From: Bacteroidia bacterium
Lineage (GTDB): Bacteria > Bacteroidota > Bacteroidia > NS11-12g > UBA955
Direction of reading: 5' to 3'
Assembly (NCBI GenBank): GCA_023268875.1
Contig: JALRKL010000088.1
Location: 1 to 40,151 of the forward strand
DNA length: 40,151 nt
Numbering within the stretch: position 1 is the stretch's first letter; the number at the start of each line of letters is the position of its first letter. The notes beneath the pieces are model-generated. The model searched no databases. It saw nothing but the letters and a program-made list of their open reading frames with translations, and was not told the origin of the DNA. The translations under genes and the position numbers were made by a program. Of this stretch, positions 13,886 to 23,058 are shown piece after piece.

Positions 13886-14767
13886 TTAAGCACCCTCTAG
13901 TGCAGCAACACCACCCACGATTTCAGAGATCTCACGAGTAATAGCCGCTTGACGGGCTTGGTTGTATGCCAAACGCAAGGCACCAAGTAGTTCTCCAGCG
14001 TTTTCTGTAGCTTTATCCATCGCCACCATTCTCGCTCCATGTTCTGACGCTAGTGAATCTAACATTGCGCGATACACTTGCGTTTTTAATGATCTAGGAA
14101 TAAGATCCTCAAGTATGGCTACCTTAGAAGGCTCAAATAAGTAATCACTCGAAACCTGTTTAGATTGCTCCGTTTTAGATGCAATCGGCAATACTGTCTC
14201 ATTGGAGAGTATTTGGGTTGCCGCATTCTTGAATTGGTTGTAAACAACCTCAATTTTATCGATGCTACCTGATTTAAAACGATTAATTAAGGAATTAGTA
14301 AAATCAAAAGCCTTATCAGAATTCAAATCAATTAAAAGATTTTGATATTCCGTGTTTACCGCATAGCCCAATCGCTTTAGGGTTTCTCCAGCTTTCTTTC
14401 CAATGCAGAGGATTTCTACATTACCTGATTTTACCAAATCTTTGTATTCATTTTCTAACAATTGACGTGTGCGCTTAGCCACATTCGCATTGAATGCACC
14501 ACACAAGCCGCGATCACTAGATATAACTACTAAGCAAACTTTCTTGATTTCGCGTTCATCAAAATATACTGCCAAACGATCGTCATCTGCACTTTCTTGA
14601 AGATTCGACATGATGCCTTGTAACTTCAGCGCATAGGGACGCATACGCACGATTGCGTCACTCGCCTTTCTCAATTTTGTAGCACTTACCAACTTCATAG
14701 CTTTGGTAATTTGCTGCGTACTGATGGTTGACGATATACGAGCGCGTATTTCCTTTTGATTTGACAT
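13886..14767 (-). CDS. atpG: F1Fo ATP synthase gamma subunit
   Basis: RISSTISTQQITKAMKLVSATKLRKA and C-term LRLAYNQARQAAITREISEIVGGVAAL. Confidence 0.97.
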   Translation of the reverse strand: MSNQKEIRARISSTISTQQITKAMKLVSATKLRKASDAIVRMRPYALKLQGIMSNLQESADDDRLAVYFDEREIKKVCLVVISSDRGLCGAFNANVAKRTRQLLENEYKDLVKSGNVEILCIGKKAGETLKRLGYAVNTEYQNLLIDLNSDKAFDFTNSLINRFKSGSIDKIEVVYNQFKNAATQILSNETVLPIASKTEQSKQVSSDYLFEPSKVAILEDLIPRSLKTQVYRAMLDSLASEHGARMVAMDKATENAGELLGALRLAYNQARQAAITREISEIVGGVAALEGA

Positions 14768-14777
14768 TATTTAGAGA

Positions 14778-16358
14778 TTAAGCGGTATAGTTCTTAGAAA
14801 TTTCTTCTCCAGCAGCTTCCAAAACGCTCATCACATTTTCATCAATTTTACCTGATTTCAATGTATTTAATACGTCTTTGTGTTTCTGGTCGAGATAGGA
14901 AACAAAAGCTTCTTCAAATTCACGAACCTTGTTTACTGGGATGTTTCTAAGTTTATTCTTAGTTCCCAAGTAAATCATCGCAATTTGATTCTCAACAGTC
15001 TGAGGCGAGAACTGTGCTTGCTTCAACATTTCTACGTTGCGCGCACCTTTCTCCAATACAGATTTAGTTGCTGCATCAAGATCCGATCCGAATTTGGCAA
15101 AGGCTTCTAACTCTCTATATTGAGCCTGATCGAGTTTAAGCGTACCCGCTACTTTCTTCATAGACTTAATCTGGGCATTACCTCCCACACGTGATACCGA
15201 AATACCCACGTTGATAGCAGGACGAACCCCTGAGTTAAATAAGTTTGATTCCAAGAAAATCTGACCATCGGTGATAGAAATCACGTTGGTAGGAATATAA
15301 GCCGATACGTCACCTGCTTGTGTTTCAATAATAGGCAATGCGGTAAGTGATCCACCTCCTTTTACCTTACCTGCTAATGAAGGAGGTAAATCGTTCATTT
15401 TGGAAGTAATTTCATCGTTAGAATTCAACTTACATGCACGTTCCAAAATACGGCTGTGCAAGTAGAATACATCACCTGGATATGCTTCACGTCCTGGAGG
15501 ACGACGTAACAACAAAGAAACCTCACGATACGCTACTGCTTGCTTCGACAAATCGTCATAAACAACCAATGCAGGCAACCCTAAATCGCGGAAATACTCA
15601 CCGATCGCACAACCCGACATAGGCGAGAAAAACTGCAATGGAGCGGGAGCAGATGCAGGTGCAGAAACAACCACGGTGTAAGCCATAGCACCGTTTTCTT
15701 CCAACGATTTTACTACTTGCTTAACGGTTGATTCTTTCTGACCGCAGGCAACATATATACAATAGACAGGATTTCCTGCTTCGTAGAATTCTTTTTGATT
15801 GATGATGGTATCGATTGCAATCGCAGTTTTACCTGTCTGACGGTCGCCAATGATTAGCTCACGCTGACCTCTTCCGATTGGAATCATAGCGTCAATTGCC
15901 TTGATACCCGTTTGAAGCGGTTCGGTTACAGGTTCACGAAACAACACACCAGGAGCTTTACGCTCAAGTGGCATTTCGTAAAGATCGCCTTCAATAGGAC
16001 CTTTACCATCGATAGGCTCACCCAATGCGTTTACCACACGGCCTAGCATACCATGACCCACCTTAAGACTAGCGATTTTGTTTGTGCGTTTAACTTTATC
16101 TCCTTCTTTGATATCGGTACTGCTACCCATCAAAACCGCACCCACATTATCTTCTTCAAGGTTCAATACTACAGCGCGAACGCCATTTTCGAACTCTACG
16201 AGTTCACCACTTTGAACTCCGAAAAGTCCGTAAATACGGGCAATACCATCTCCAACTTGAAGTACGGTACCTACCTCTTCTAAACTAGCAGCACTGCTGA
16301 AACCAGCGATCTGGTCTTTCAATATGCTGGATACTTCGTCTGGCCTAATGTGTGACAT
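14778..16358 (-). CDS. atpA: F1Fo ATP synthase alpha subunit
   Basis: 526 aa; [17 protein letters not shown]-loop; [43 protein letters not shown]. Confidence 0.98.
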
Positions 16359-16364
16359 AATTTT

Positions 16365-16904
16365 TTATGCGATTTGAAGTTCTTTTTTTATTTTTTTCAA
16401 TTGTGTTGATACGGTATTATCAAAGATACGACCGTTAAATTCTATGGTAACCCCTCCTAAAATAGCGGGATCTACACGTGTAATGATTTTTACTGTATTG
16501 GCTTGAGTATGTTTTTTTACGTATGCCTCGATATCCGCAACTGTTGTTTTGGATAACTCAACCGCACTTTCCACTTCCACCAAAACAATTTTTTGAGCGT
16601 TATTGTATAATTTCATAAAGCTTTCACCCATAGCCGGAATGTAAGCTTCACGTTTCTTGTCTACCATAAGCGCATACAAACCTTTTGTCAAAGCGTGATG
16701 CTTCGCAAAAATATTGTCTAACGCCTTTTTCTTGGCAGCCATCTTATACATAGGACTTTGTATGAACAACATGAACTCGCGGCTTTCCTGAGAAAGTACG
16801 ATAAGCTCCTCAACATTGTCTTTAACCACATCCAATAGGTTTTCTTCTTGAGCTTTATCAAAAAGAGCTTTGGAATAACGGGCAGCAATACGTTGTTCAG
16901 ACAT
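16365..16904 (-). CDS. atpH: F1Fo ATP synthase delta subunit
   Basis: AARYSKALFDKAQEE N-term; C-term ILGGVTIEFNGRIFDNTVSTQLKKIKKEL. Confidence 0.96.
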   Translation of the reverse strand: MSEQRIAARYSKALFDKAQEENLLDVVKDNVEELIVLSQESREFMLFIQSPMYKMAAKKKALDNIFAKHHALTKGLYALMVDKKREAYIPAMGESFMKLYNNAQKIVLVEVESAVELSKTTVADIEAYVKKHTQANTVKIITRVDPAILGGVTIEFNGRIFDNTVSTQLKKIKKELQIA

Positions 16905-16907
16905 GGT

Positions 16908-17411
16908 TTATGCTTGTGCTTTTTGGGTTAATTCATTTAAGTGATGTGAAATCAATTTCTGCTGTGCCTCATTGTTTGCAAGAGTATCTGCTAACAACTT
17001 TTCTGCAATTTGAACCGAAAAGGATGCAATTTCCTTTTTCAACTCATCCATAGCAGCTGACTTTTGCTTATTGATTTCGTCGCTGGCACGAGACATGATT
17101 TTCTTAGCCTCATCCTCAGCAACCGACTTAGCGTCGCCTACAATTTTCTCTTTCATTTCGCGCGCTTCTTTTAACATAGCATCGCGCTCTTGACGGGCTT
17201 GAGCGAGCAATTGTTCGTTCTCACCTTGTAATTTAGCCATCTCGTTACGCGCTTGTTCAGCTTGCGACAAAGATTGGTTGATACTGTCTTCACGGTCTTT
17301 GATAGAACCTAAAATTGGTCCCCAAGCAAATTTCTTCAGAATGAATAATAGGATACTGAAAGTTACCAGCATCCAAAATACCAAACCTATAGCAGGAGTT
17401 ACTAATTGCAT
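16908..17411 (-). CDS. atpF: F1Fo ATP synthase b subunit
   Basis: N-terminal TM LVFWMLVTFSILLFILKKFAWGPIL followed by long charged helix. Confidence 0.96.
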   Translation of the reverse strand: MQLVTPAIGLVFWMLVTFSILLFILKKFAWGPILGSIKDREDSINQSLSQAEQARNEMAKLQGENEQLLAQARQERDAMLKEAREMKEKIVGDAKSVAEDEAKKIMSRASDEINKQKSAAMDELKKEIASFSVQIAEKLLADTLANNEAQQKLISHHLNELTQKAQA

Positions 17412-17425
17412 TTTTTCGTTTTTTT

Positions 17426-17453
17426 AAAACGGGGGCCAAGGGTTTGGCCCCCG
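17426..17453 (-). terminator. Terminator-like intercistronic hairpin between atpE and atpF
   Basis: Minus strand: CGGGGGCCAA-ACCC-TTGGCCCCCG followed by TTTT; 10-bp perfect stem, 8 GC pairs, 4-nt loop. Confidence 0.75.
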
Positions 17454-17462
17454 AGGGAGTTC

Positions 17463-17741
<279 letters not shown>

Positions 17742-17756
17742 TTAGATTTAGTTTGA

Positions 17757-18908
17757 TTAATGATGTTCTTCAACGGCCATCCCTATGTAAATAGAGGATA
17801 ACAAGGTAAATACAAAAGCCTGAAGGAAAGCTACTAGCAATTCCAACAAACTCATAAACAAGGTAAATGCCACACTCAAAGGACTAACAGCATAACCCAA
17901 ACCCGGATTCATATTACCGAATATGAAAATCAAGCTAAAGAACCCAAGTATGATAATATGTCCAGCAGTGATGTTTGCAAACAAACGCAGCATCAACACG
18001 AAAGGCTTCAGGATTACACCCAAAATTTCAATTGGAATAATGATGATGTACATCCAAACGGGTACATCTGGCATGAAAATATGCTTCCAGTAATATTTGT
18101 TTCCACTTAGCGTTACTGTGATGAACACAACTAACGCCAAAACCATCGTGATTGAGATGTTTCCTGTAACGTTTGCGCCTCCAGGAAAAACTGGAATCAA
18201 ACCAAATAAATTCAAGGTGAAGATAAAGAAGAATATGCTTAGTAATAAATGCATGTATCTGTCAGCGCGCTTGCCAATAGTAGGACGTGCGATGTCATCA
18301 CGCAAAAATAAAATTAATGGTTCTATAAGGTTGTATATGCCTTTCGGTGCCTTACCGGTGTTTTTGGCGTAATGTCTGGCCATTTTCACCACAAGTACCA
18401 TTAAGAATATTGATCCGATTAACATGGCAACTACGTTTTTAGTAAGACTAAAATCATAAATGGCAGCCGTGTTAGATTCATCTTCCCAAGCAATTACACC
18501 TTCGTGGTTCAACTTAAATCCTTCATAAGCCGCATGACCGTGATGAAAATTGAAAGAAGAAAATATACTTACACCATTCTCTTCGGTATACAGTATAACA
18601 GGTAACGGAATAGAAACGGAGTGATCTCCTTCTCCCCACAGATGCCAATCGTGCGCATCTGCGATATGTTCCATAATCATTTTACCTGGATCGAAACCCT
18701 CTTTTTCATCATGCATGTCATGTGCTTGGCCATGCCCATGCTCGGAAGACTCAGAACCCGAGGTTACATGTGATTCAGACGCATCGTGCGTTGTTTCAAT
18801 TGATGTTGCGACAACGTTTTGGCTAAAAAACAGCGAGAAAATCAGGGTAAAGAACAATTTCCCAAACCTCACACTCACATTACAACATTGATTATCAGAC
18901 ATTTGCAT
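17757..18908 (-). CDS. atpB: F1Fo ATP synthase a subunit with N-terminal signal peptide and His-rich extension
   Basis: C-terminal a-subunit core (LRLFANITAGHIIILGFF; LLELLVAFLQAFVFTLLSSIYIGMAVEEHH); N-term FGKLFFTLIFSLFFSQNVVATS then His/Asp-rich region. Confidence 0.96.
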   Translation of the reverse strand: MQMSDNQCCNVSVRFGKLFFTLIFSLFFSQNVVATSIETTHDASESHVTSGSESSEHGHGQAHDMHDEKEGFDPGKMIMEHIADAHDWHLWGEGDHSVSIPLPVILYTEENGVSIFSSFNFHHGHAAYEGFKLNHEGVIAWEDESNTAAIYDFSLTKNVVAMLIGSIFLMVLVVKMARHYAKNTGKAPKGIYNLIEPLILFLRDDIARPTIGKRADRYMHLLLSIFFFIFTLNLFGLIPVFPGGANVTGNISITMVLALVVFITVTLSGNKYYWKHIFMPDVPVWMYIIIIPIEILGVILKPFVLMLRLFANITAGHIIILGFFSLIFIFGNMNPGLGYAVSPLSVAFTLFMSLLELLVAFLQAFVFTLLSSIYIGMAVEEHH

Positions 18909-18918
18909 ACCTATTGGG

Positions 18919-19293
18919 TTATTCCGTTTCGGGGCGCAAGTTAGTACGCATTTCTAAAATATCAAAGAAAAGAAAGAAAAGAAAAGTCAGTCCGTAAACG
19001 GCGACAAAAGTCAATTCGATCGGCTTCATATTAAACAGGCTTATAGCCAAAAAGATAAGCACTAAAAAAAGTCGCACCATCGACCCTATCATCAATCTGC
19101 GAATACGTTTGTTTTCGGAAATTTGAACATCGTGATGGGTGAAATATTGAACGATATTAAACAACAGGGCTATGTAGACAATTCCGATATAAGAAACCGG
19201 CATCATTCGCAAACCCATTACCTGAGAACCAACACCTACACTGATTAATAGGATTGAAACCAAAACCGCAGATTTTATGATATATGCCTTCAT
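18919..19293 (-). CDS. Small 4-TM membrane protein in atp operon, AtpI-like position
   Basis: 124 aa, four hydrophobic segments, located immediately before atpB as AtpI/'ATP synthase subunit I' usually is. Confidence 0.55.
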   Translation of the reverse strand: MKAYIIKSAVLVSILLISVGVGSQVMGLRMMPVSYIGIVYIALLFNIVQYFTHHDVQISENKRIRRLMIGSMVRLFLVLIFLAISLFNMKPIELTFVAVYGLTFLFFLFFDILEMRTNLRPETE

Positions 19294-19296
19294 TTC

Positions 19297-19557
19297 TTAT
19301 TTTAGGGATTTGAAAACCCGGTAAAAGGCGATGCCCATACCTGCAAACACCCCTGCTAATGTGCCAATCGGAAATTTAGTCTGGGTCCTTTGATCTATCC
19401 ACCTGCCAATAAACGTTCCCAAAAGAATGGTCACCATCATTTGAAGTGCCATTCCTGTGTAAGACAAAAAACTGCGATTACGATCTGTCGGTGTTTTCTT
19501 CACTTCTTCCAAGATTATTGGATTTGCCCATTCTGCAAGATCCATTAAACGAACCAC
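19297..19557 (-). CDS. AtpZ/AtpI-family protein
   Basis: SYTGMALQMMVTILLGTFIGRWIDQRTQTKFPIGTLAGVFAGMGIAFYRVFKSLK matches the AtpZ/AtpI two-TM pattern; true start may be GTG at 19503. Confidence 0.8.
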   Translation of the reverse strand: MVRLMDLAEWANPIILEEVKKTPTDRNRSFLSYTGMALQMMVTILLGTFIGRWIDQRTQTKFPIGTLAGVFAGMGIAFYRVFKSLK

Positions 19558-19882
19558 CTTGTTCTATAATTATTTGCCGTGTTTGTATATCCCCGTCAAC
19601 TGCAGATGTTCCGTGTAAGACGGTTGTTTCATCGGATACAATATTTCCTTTTACGGTCCCTGAGATGCTCACATTCACCGCCGATATATCGCCGTGTACA
19701 CTTCCTGTTTCACCGATTACCAACTTTTGCCCCACTTCCATGTTGCCTTTTACTGTACCGTCAATACGAATATCTCCGCTACACTGAATGTTACCCGTGA
19801 TTACCGTTCCAGCACCAATAAGATTTAACAGCGCTTGAGGCGCCAATGAACTTTTATTTTTTGATTTTCCGCTTCCCAACAT
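19478..19882 (-). CDS. Bactofilin (polymer-forming cytoskeletal protein)
   Basis: LIGAGTVITGNIQCSGDIRIDGTVKGNMEVGQKLVIGETGSVHGDISAVNVSISGTVKGNIVSDETTVLHGTSAVDGDIQTRQIIIEQGGSFNGSCRM: canonical bactofilin beta-helix. Confidence 0.93.
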   Translation of the reverse strand: MLGSGKSKNKSSLAPQALLNLIGAGTVITGNIQCSGDIRIDGTVKGNMEVGQKLVIGETGSVHGDISAVNVSISGTVKGNIVSDETTVLHGTSAVDGDIQTRQIIIEQGGSFNGSCRMGKSNNLGRSEENTDRS

Positions 19883-19963
19883 TGCACGTGAATAAGAAAT
19901 AATGCTGCAAATATACTTATAACAATCTAGTTAATAACGACCCATCCCAAATCGCGTTTTAAC

Positions 19964-20332
19964 TTACTGCATTCTAACAGAAGTTGAATCGTACGGTTTT
20001 TCATTTTCAGATAACAAATCGTTTAAAACCTTCGATTTTTGATTTCGTATTTCTATTTGTTTCTTCAGATCCGATAGTTCTTGATTCAACCATAGCAACT
20101 CTTGTTTATCGCTGCTGCTTAATCCGTTTGGTAATACGTTGCGCAAGGGCGTGAAAGCATAAAGGAAATAGGAGATCAAAGCTACCACCAAAAACAAAAC
20201 TGAAAAAATACTGAGCGTATTCAATAAATTGATTTTTACCGAAGCTATTTCTGCAAAAGATTCGTCGTTCATTAAAACAAGACGGTGTTTATTCCGAAGT
20301 TTAGAGATAATTTTGTTGCGATTCGGCTTCAT
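19964..20332 (-). CDS. Membrane protein resembling only the N-terminal anchor of Bacteroidota M23 peptidases (no peptidase domain)
   Basis: 122 aa: KLRNKHRLVLMNDESFAEIASVKINLLNTLSIFSVLFLVVALISYFLYAFTPLRNVLPNGLSSSDKQELLWLNQELSDLKKQIEIRNQK; cytosolic segment + TM + short coiled coil. Confidence 0.65.
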   Translation of the reverse strand: MKPNRNKIISKLRNKHRLVLMNDESFAEIASVKINLLNTLSIFSVLFLVVALISYFLYAFTPLRNVLPNGLSSSDKQELLWLNQELSDLKKQIEIRNQKSKVLNDLLSENEKPYDSTSVRMQ

Positions 20333-20397: not shown

Positions 20398-23058
20398 ATG
20401 AGATTTGCGTTTATCAGAGCGCTACGCCCGACATATATATATTTTGGCTTCCTATGGGTAGTACTCTTCTCATCGTGCGGGAACGAATCTTCTTGGACTT
20501 ACAAAGCTTGGCATAATACCCTCGCCCATTATAACATATATTTTAATGGAGAACAAAAGTGGTTGGAAACTCAACAAACTGTTCGAGAGGCCTATAAAGA
20601 TGACTTTCGTAAACCCATCAATTTATTCAATTACGGAACTCTAGAATCCTTACAAGGAAATTTAGGTGCCATGGATGAAGTTGTAAAGAAAGCGAGCACG
20701 ATGATCGACAAGCACCCTAAAAGCAAATGGGTTGATGACGCTTATTTGTTGACAGGCAAAGCTTATTTATTTAAGGGAGATGCAATCGCGGCCGTAAATA
20801 TTTTCGACTTCGTTGCCAATCAGTACAAAGACCCGAATATCTTGTTTCAATCCAAACTTTGGACCGTTAGGGCACTTTTATTACAAGGTAAAATTATCGA
20901 TGCAGAAGCTATGGCTTCAAACATTCTGAAAAATCCCAAATTGCCCAAAGAACTTTTACACGTAGCACAATTTACCCTTGGAGCCATCTACCACCAACAA
21001 AAAAAGTATCAACAATCTGCCGAGCTTCTGCAAAAGGCATTACCTCGCTTAACCAATCGAATGGATTGTTACAGAACGTATTTTGCTTTAGGTCAAGCCT
21101 ACCAAAAAACAGGAGATTTTGTAAAAGCAGAAAAAGCCTATGCTAAGGTTCCGAGGTTCAATCCTCCATATGAATTGACATTCAATTCTCAAATAGAACA
21201 GGTGAGCATATTATCTGCCCAACAACGCGATTTTACTAAAGCAAACAAAATATTAAACCGCATGCTCAAAGACGATAAAAACCTTGAGTACAAAGGTCAA
21301 ATATATTTTCGAATGGCCCTCAACGAGCTCGATGCCGGCAATACAGAAAAAGCCATTGAAACTTTAAAAGTATCGGTACAAGAATCATTAGGGGATAAAA
21401 ATCAAAAAACCAGTTCTTACTTAAAAATTGGCGATATCTACTACCAAAAAAAAGCGTATCTACAAGCAGGAATGTATTACGACTCGGCTAACCGTGTTTT
21501 GGATGAAACCCATCCCGATTTTGAAAGTATCTTAGCTAAAAATCAAATTGTTACCGATTTGTTGGAACATTTAGTTCGGATATCTCAGAACGACTCATTA
21601 ATTCGCTTGGTTCGAGATGAAGAATTTTTAAAGGACAAAATCAAAGAAGCAAAGAAAAAAGAAAAAGAGCAACAAGAAAGGGAAAAAGCGCTAGCGGAAA
21701 TGGCCAAAAATAGAACGATGCCCAATTTCCCTTCGAACCCCGGTATGCCCATGAATCCGAACCTCGGAGGTGGGGGTGGATCTGGAAGTTCGTTCCCTTT
21801 TTACAACATTGTTACCAGAAAAAACGGAATTGCTGAATTCAGCCGTGCGTATGGGGATAGACCGAATGTCGATTTCTGGAAGTATCGCAGCAAAATGCAA
21901 TCTTTGAACAATCCCACTCCGAAAGATAGCGATAATACTAAGGAAGGCGAGCAGGATACATCTACGGATAATAAAGCCCAAAAAATCAGTGAAAAGCTGA
22001 AGAATATCGCTAAAGAAGATCGTAAATATTACGAGAATCTGCCCTTTGATAGCGAAGAACAAAAAAAACTTCTTCAAGAAATTGAAATTTCGCTATTTGA
22101 ATCTGCAGGGATATATGCCAACAAATTAAACGAGATTGAAACCGCCCAGAACCAATACACCACGCTTATCAATCGATTTTATAACTCGGCATATGTTCCT
22201 CAGACGTATTACGAGTTAATAAAATTGCACCGAATAGAAAATCAGCCATCTTTAGCCCGACTGTATACCGATACCTTAAAAACCCGCTTTCCAGAGAGTA
22301 TATACCTCAAGATGATTGAAAATCCTGAAGCCGTAAATACCATAAAAAATCCCGAGGCCGAGAGCAATCAAATTATACAGAATAAATACGACTCGATGTT
22401 ATTAGCATTTCAAGACCAACGATATTCCGATGCTATTGACATAAAATTAGAAACCGACAAATCGTATTCAGGAAATAGTTTACAACCGCGTTTCGATTTT
22501 GTTTATGGATTGTGCTTAATAAAAAGCGACTCTCTTAAAGCCACTGAAATTTTCAAACAAATTGGTCTTGATTATCCAAATACCGACGTTAGCAGAAGAT
22601 CAAAGAGTATTTTGGCCTCATTAGAAAAACGAAACGTTTCGGTATTGCCGGATTCCCTTAGAAACGCCTTAGAAAATTCGCAATCCTTTAAATTGCCTGC
22701 GTCGGATGAGAAATTAGACGCCGTGATCATAATCCCCAAATCCGCTAACGTAAACATGGCAAAAGCTCTTATTAGTGATTTAAATAAAAAAGAATTTTCT
22801 TTTGATAAATTGGTAATGGGCAGACATATCCCGCTGGGGGATTCTTATTTGATTTTGGTAGAAAACTTCACTTCAGCGGATAAAACACGCTTTTACGCTC
22901 GTTACTTATCTCAACAAACAGATTTATTCAATAGCAGGGGTATTTTCAAATACGAAACCGTTACTATTTCGACCGATAACCTTCAATTACTTGTAAAAAC
23001 TGAACAAATTGAAGAGTACACAAAGTGGCATAAATTAAAATATGCCGACTTGGATTGA
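20398..23058 (+). CDS. porW: PorW/SprE-family T9SS-associated TPR lipoprotein
   Basis: Lipobox FSSCGNESSWTYKAWHNTLAHYNIYFNGEQKW; TPR arrays; start at internal ATG (MRFAFIRALRP) of ORF 20353..23058. Confidence 0.85.
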   Translation: MRFAFIRALRPTYIYFGFLWVVLFSSCGNESSWTYKAWHNTLAHYNIYFNGEQKWLETQQTVREAYKDDFRKPINLFNYGTLESLQGNLGAMDEVVKKASTMIDKHPKSKWVDDAYLLTGKAYLFKGDAIAAVNIFDFVANQYKDPNILFQSKLWTVRALLLQGKIIDAEAMASNILKNPKLPKELLHVAQFTLGAIYHQQKKYQQSAELLQKALPRLTNRMDCYRTYFALGQAYQKTGDFVKAEKAYAKVPRFNPPYELTFNSQIEQVSILSAQQRDFTKANKILNRMLKDDKNLEYKGQIYFRMALNELDAGNTEKAIETLKVSVQESLGDKNQKTSSYLKIGDIYYQKKAYLQAGMYYDSANRVLDETHPDFESILAKNQIVTDLLEHLVRISQNDSLIRLVRDEEFLKDKIKEAKKKEKEQQEREKALAEMAKNRTMPNFPSNPGMPMNPNLGGGGGSGSSFPFYNIVTRKNGIAEFSRAYGDRPNVDFWKYRSKMQSLNNPTPKDSDNTKEGEQDTSTDNKAQKISEKLKNIAKEDRKYYENLPFDSEEQKKLLQEIEISLFESAGIYANKLNEIETAQNQYTTLINRFYNSAYVPQTYYELIKLHRIENQPSLARLYTDTLKTRFPESIYLKMIENPEAVNTIKNPEAESNQIIQNKYDSMLLAFQDQRYSDAIDIKLETDKSYSGNSLQPRFDFVYGLCLIKSDSLKATEIFKQIGLDYPNTDVSRRSKSILASLEKRNVSVLPDSLRNALENSQSFKLPASDEKLDAVIIIPKSANVNMAKALISDLNKKEFSFDKLVMGRHIPLGDSYLILVENFTSADKTRFYARYLSQQTDLFNSRGIFKYETVTISTDNLQLLVKTEQIEEYTKWHKLKYADLD

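Follow-up and report, generated by a model that had tools for sequence, protein, structure and literature searches.

We found that a 122-aa protein encoded next to a bactofilin gene in a Bacteroidia bacterium is best explained, on sequence comparison, as a domain-loss derivative of an LmdC-type M23 peptidase of the kind associated with bactofilins. The short anchor is a variant of the known bactofilin-M23 module, and peptidase-less anchors of this kind did not turn up in the open-licence literature searched. Bactofilin and M23 peptidase are treated together as a single enzymatic morphogenetic module; the repeated natural removal of the enzyme with the anchor kept sets positioning apart from hydrolysis, and this separation is directly testable.

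The short anchor and its locus

The window, which is the whole 40,151-nt stretch of DNA that was analysed, belongs to a 2.14-Mb draft genome that is ~97% complete. The 122-aa open reading frame (19964..20332, minus strand) starts with ATG, contains RNKHRLVLMNDESFAEIASVKI...FTPLRNVLP and encodes an LmdC-like N-terminal third, consisting of a cytosolic motif, a transmembrane (TM) helix and a coiled coil. Downstream on the same strand is the gene for a 134-aa bactofilin (19478..19882, minus strand; PF04519, E 4.9e-28; N-terminus MLGSGKSKNKSS), which is the only bactofilin copy in the genome. The preliminary description had placed a bactofilin about 81 bp from the 122-aa gene, and both the family and a gap of exactly 81 bp were confirmed. 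It had also stated that the protein stops after a short coiled coil and lacks a peptidase domain, which agrees with the absence of any PF01551 match in the protein and of any M23 domain in the locus when searched with Pfam, NCBIfam and PF01551. None of the Pfam and NCBIfam models covers the 122-aa protein, and since the short anchors tested match no family in these collections, surveys that require an M23 domain beside a bactofilin miss short-anchor loci.

An assembly error or frameshift that conceals a downstream M23 frame in the contig can practically be discounted as an explanation. Split genes do exist in family f55, where the full-length anchor-M23 genes of G606 (locus L195) and G566 (L196) are broken into two frames with the M23 frame directly downstream, and these two were left out of the short forms for that reason; however, the 81-bp gap in the window holds no M23 coding sequence, and independent assemblies agree.

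The anchor and bactofilin genes head an ATP synthase operon (13886-20332, minus strand) that continues with atpZ, a gene for a 124-aa protein, and atpB, E, F, H, A and G. The AtpZ/AtpI-like ATP synthase assembly protein (19297..19557, minus strand; PF09527, E 1.4e-16) has an uncertain start codon, and the 124-aa membrane protein encoded between AtpZ and AtpB (18919..19293, minus strand) has no family match and is conserved across the window's family. The Helicobacter pylori bactofilin adaptor Csd5 reportedly interacts with ATP synthase (PMC9507126), which could be either a parallel to the operon in the window or a coincidence. On the other side, divergent from the anchor, lies the gene for PorW/SprE, a periplasmic lipoprotein of the type IX secretion system (T9SS) (20398..23058, plus strand; NF052312, E 3.7e-145). 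The order divergent PorW, anchor, bactofilin, AtpZ and atpB is common to the short forms and many long forms.

The conserved cytosolic motif (residues 11-35, KLRNKHRLVLMNDESFAEIASVKIN; 20228..20302, minus strand) is the proposed counterpart of the bactofilin-binding beta-hairpin of LmdC. It is followed by a single TM helix (residues 36-60; 20153..20227, minus strand), which AF2 modelled as a helix with block pLDDT of 82-90, and by a periplasmic coiled coil (residues 73-107; 20012..20116, minus strand), also a helix in AF2 with block pLDDT mostly 80-88, before a short tail, DSTSVR, of which DSTS is conserved in the window's family. AF2 modelled the full-length ortholog L150 with a hairpin of strands 17-21 and 28-33 in the cytosolic tail, a TM helix spanning 36-60 and a coil helix spanning 73-107; residues 117-160, modelled with very low confidence, precede the M23 domain. 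The positions of the TM helix and coil are thus identical in the two models, which indicates that the short protein corresponds to a long form cut just past the coiled coil, and the short anchor ends where the disordered linker of the long M23 proteins begins. The hairpin region of the short protein was modelled as a low-confidence helix, with no hairpin built.

When the unmodified 122-aa protein was compared with 57 related genomes by phmmer, short relatives were found in its own genus and in many sister genera, and the sister family yielded full-length M23 proteins with E-values down to 8.5e-14. In the long matches (~275-320 aa), the N-terminal 110-120 residues align with the window anchor and the rest runs into the M23 domain. 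Alignment of a profile built from 22 short forms with one built from 18 full-length Bacteroidota forms by hhalign gave a probability of 99.9 and an E-value of 4.1e-32 over 118 columns, and the resemblance to Bacteroidota M23 peptidases first noticed in the N-terminus therefore stands against the possibility of no relation. The full-length M23 proteins that occupy this slot in relatives (e.g., L150 and L062) share ~31% identity with the window anchor and are its orthologs by position and sequence; these proteins extend via a disordered linker into PF01551, whereas the window anchor does not. An identity as a divisome coiled-coil protein (FtsB, FtsL or DivIC) was rejected, since no such Pfam or NCBIfam match was obtained and the homology found is to M23 anchors. 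A search for solved structures of relatives returned chance coiled-coil matches only.

By description, the anchor resembles LmdC of Hyphomonas neptunium and Rhodospirillum rubrum (PMC10945521), which has a cytosolic hairpin motif, a single TM helix, a periplasmic coil and a bactofilin-adjacent gene. The cytosolic motif, the TM helix with the coil and the bactofilin adjacency of LmdC-type proteins are all found in the window; in contrast, the M23 domain with HxxxD and HxH is found in neither the protein nor the locus. LmdC, which H. neptunium cannot do without, has a catalytic M23 domain, whereas the window anchor ends before M23.

Spread, repeated origin and selection

An intact short form is present in ~60 distinct genomes. 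The short forms of the window's family make up one clade on the PorW tree (SH-aLRT 100), which spans many genera and independent metagenome assemblies, with titles that include pond and Lake Baikal. A survey of the class (395 genomes), family f12 (64) and family f55 (151) added short forms in f12 (genera g31, g92, g105, g120, g150, g210 and g212), in f40 (G133) and in f55 (G271, G120 and G508), and the fetched loci of these contained no M23 frame. In two of the f55 short forms (L188 and L197), part of the linker is kept (KKDSILRKEVEEEE in L197) and the stop lies just before the M23 domain; the end point thus varies slightly from one independent loss to another.

The short state requires at least 7 changes on the PorW tree, 6 of which are forced by strongly supported branches; the f55 cases are absent from this tree because PorW is not adjacent to the anchor in them. 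For the 15 f12 short forms, a single clade was rejected in a careful tree (p-AU 2e-74), and this test and the PorW tree together reject one origin for all short forms. In a tree of the M23 domains, those of core f12 grouped together, with weak support (61), and those of f1 grouped together with a support of 96. Because each of these sets of domains groups together, loss is favored over regain, and re-acquisition of M23 from outside in f12 is not favored, although some of the changes between short and long forms could be regains.

The short anchor is under purifying selection, which is strongest in the cytosolic motif. The dN/dS among short forms was 0.016-0.14 where dS was measurable, with many pairs near saturation. 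In the comparison of the window with G008, its nearest relative, the anchor was better conserved than its neighbors, with a dN of 0.066 versus 0.195 for the bactofilin and 0.149 for PorW. Residues 11-35 form the most conserved long segment, with the lowest column entropy in short and long forms alike: the mean was 0.62 bits in the short forms of the family versus 1.4-1.75 elsewhere in the protein, and 1.15 in the long forms versus 2.0-2.7 for the TM helix, coil and tails. Only the stretch of ten residues after the TM helix, TPLREYIPGY, equals residues 11-35 in conservation, and it does so in the long and f12 forms.

These results bear on whether the short gene is a functionless, decaying remnant, which we regard as highly improbable. 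One member would fit decay: in G016 (L059, 2920-3171) the short anchor has lost its coiled coil through an internal deletion with a frameshift, and the out-of-frame remainder still reads ...LNKILEGNEAAFDSTSVRQNK; however, dN/dS is far below 1 in many pairs, and the gene is intact in all of the distinct genomes counted above, including one clade across many genera. A truncation confined to one strain would likewise not account for a short form that purifying selection has conserved, in an unchanged gene order, across a large clade and that arose repeatedly elsewhere.

Besides deletion, the enzyme has been altered in place. In G015, G025/G033 and G296, the PF01551 fold is recognisable but other residues stand in place of HxxxD and HxH, and judging from these sequences the proteins are pseudo-enzymes on the same anchor. 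Four full-length anchors (L063, L071, L072 and L190) have an M23 domain without metal-binding and catalytic residues, and L134, with HVH, was counted as intact M23. H. pylori Csd2 is an inactive M23 homolog, so that catalysis was lost in a bactofilin-linked shape complex there as it was here. Csd2 keeps an inactive M23 fold, as do the proteins of G015, G025/G033 and G296, whereas the window protein has no such fold.

Other M23 genes and the loss of the enzyme

Three M23 genes are present in the genome, none of them within the window: a 321-aa coiled-coil protein, a 241-aa secreted protein beside ribF/gldA and an EnvC-like protein of 432 aa. A genome search for a detached M23 domain had been proposed at the outset, and its candidate, the 241-aa gene, did not prove to be derived from the lost domain. 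Orthologs of this ribF-adjacent gene occur in both long- and short-anchor genomes, which marks it as an older, separate gene, and a detached copy was thus rejected. In the nearest relative (G008, L171, 2114-2836), an in-frame TGA divides the M23 gene next to ribF into frames of 115 and 125 aa, which points to either a pseudogene or an assembly error.

It is unlikely that the anchor's coil recruits one of these other M23 proteins in trans and so restores a split bactofilin-peptidase complex. Such recruitment would be consistent with the persistence of all three genes, with the retained coiled coil and with H. pylori Csd7, which stabilises the hydrolase Csd1 and makes weak contact with the bactofilin (PMC9507126). 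However, the ribF-linked M23 is not particular to short-anchor genomes, the coil is among the least conserved segments of the anchor, and in the loci examined no replacement or detached M23 was adjacent to a short anchor, with the exception of genus g14, in which the bactofilin is near the ribF-M23. Moreover, genomes with a short anchor have fewer M23 genes (mostly 3-5) than their long-anchor relatives (mostly 5-9).

Two other changes that might be tied to the enzyme loss were rejected. Disappearance of the MreB elongasome cannot have been its cause, as MreB was found in 49 of the 49 short and long genomes tested. Loss of the membrane-targeting N-terminus of the bactofilin along with the short forms was also set aside, as the classes show no clear difference by eye.

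Proposed role of the anchor

The anchor is likely to do work independently of the enzyme, since the enzyme half was lost many times and the front half is under strong selection. By analogy, we give somewhat better than an even chance to the reading in which the peptidase-free LmdC-type anchor tethers or positions the bactofilin and its coil docks envelope proteins, with the hydrolase dispensable in these lineages. The cytosolic motif would bind the bactofilin encoded next door, the TM helix would let the anchor tether and position the bactofilin polymer at the inner membrane, and the periplasmic coiled coil may take over from the lost enzyme by docking other envelope proteins, such as PorW or enzymes of the wall. 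Positioning would then be the conserved job of the module, and the attached hydrolase would be dispensable in the short-form lineages.

This tether or adaptor role is suggested by precedents from LmdC, PbpC and Csd5. The N-terminal cytosolic region of LmdC binds bactofilin with a KD of about 15 uM in H. neptunium, and R. rubrum LmdC(1-80), which is the tail and TM helix without the peptidase, co-localises with BacA in an lmdC deletion; mutations in the LmdC hairpin abolished its inner-curve enrichment and reduced that of BacA (PMC10945521). The window anchor is a natural counterpart of this engineered LmdC(1-80) plus the coiled coil. Clients of BacA contribute to its membrane association, and the overproduced client PbpC is able to replace the BacA membrane-targeting sequence (PMC12448750). 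In H. pylori, Csd5 is a non-enzymatic transmembrane protein that binds the bactofilin CcmA through its cytosolic N-terminus and directs CcmA to the envelope (PMC9507126). By description, Csd5 is like the window anchor in being a non-enzymatic TM protein at a bactofilin; in contrast, Csd5 binds peptidoglycan through a periplasmic SH3 domain, whereas the window anchor has a coiled coil only, with no Pfam match to a Csd5-type SH3 domain and an AF2 model that ends past the coil.

Several observations speak against this role. AF2 built no hairpin in the short protein, the bactofilin persists in 10 of the 20 class members sampled that had no detected anchor, and some lineages keep the anchor by PorW with the bactofilin elsewhere in the genome, so that the bactofilin may not be the only or main partner. 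A broader reading, which we advance tentatively, is that the core function of the module in Bacteroidota is non-enzymatic: a bitopic anchor would organise the bactofilin, and perhaps PorW or ATP synthase, with an optional peptidase that was repeatedly deleted or inactivated.

PorW is an outer-membrane lipoprotein that reaches into the periplasm. It is decidedly unlikely that the anchor mainly serves the T9SS, placing or spacing T9SS parts with PorW, and that the lost M23 domain once opened the peptidoglycan for their insertion. PorW is divergent from and adjacent to the anchor or M23 gene in 117/140 distinct Bacteroidota loci, and this adjacency is kept where the bactofilin has moved, as in some of the 117 loci in which it lies beyond PorW or elsewhere in the genome. 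However, of 20 sampled genomes in which no anchor was detected, 17 had PorW above the family cut-off, which indicates that PorW does not need the anchor; the anchor is far from PorW in f55; the published PorW interactome text names no peptidoglycan-peptidase partner (PMC8754138); and the adjacency may merely reflect an old operon architecture. In genus g14 (L155 and L156), the bactofilin and the start of the ATP synthase operon have shifted near the ribF-M23 and the short anchor stayed beside porW. The adjacency of anchor or M23 genes to porW even where no bactofilin is nearby may reflect an unreported connection of the bactofilin-M23 module with the T9SS.
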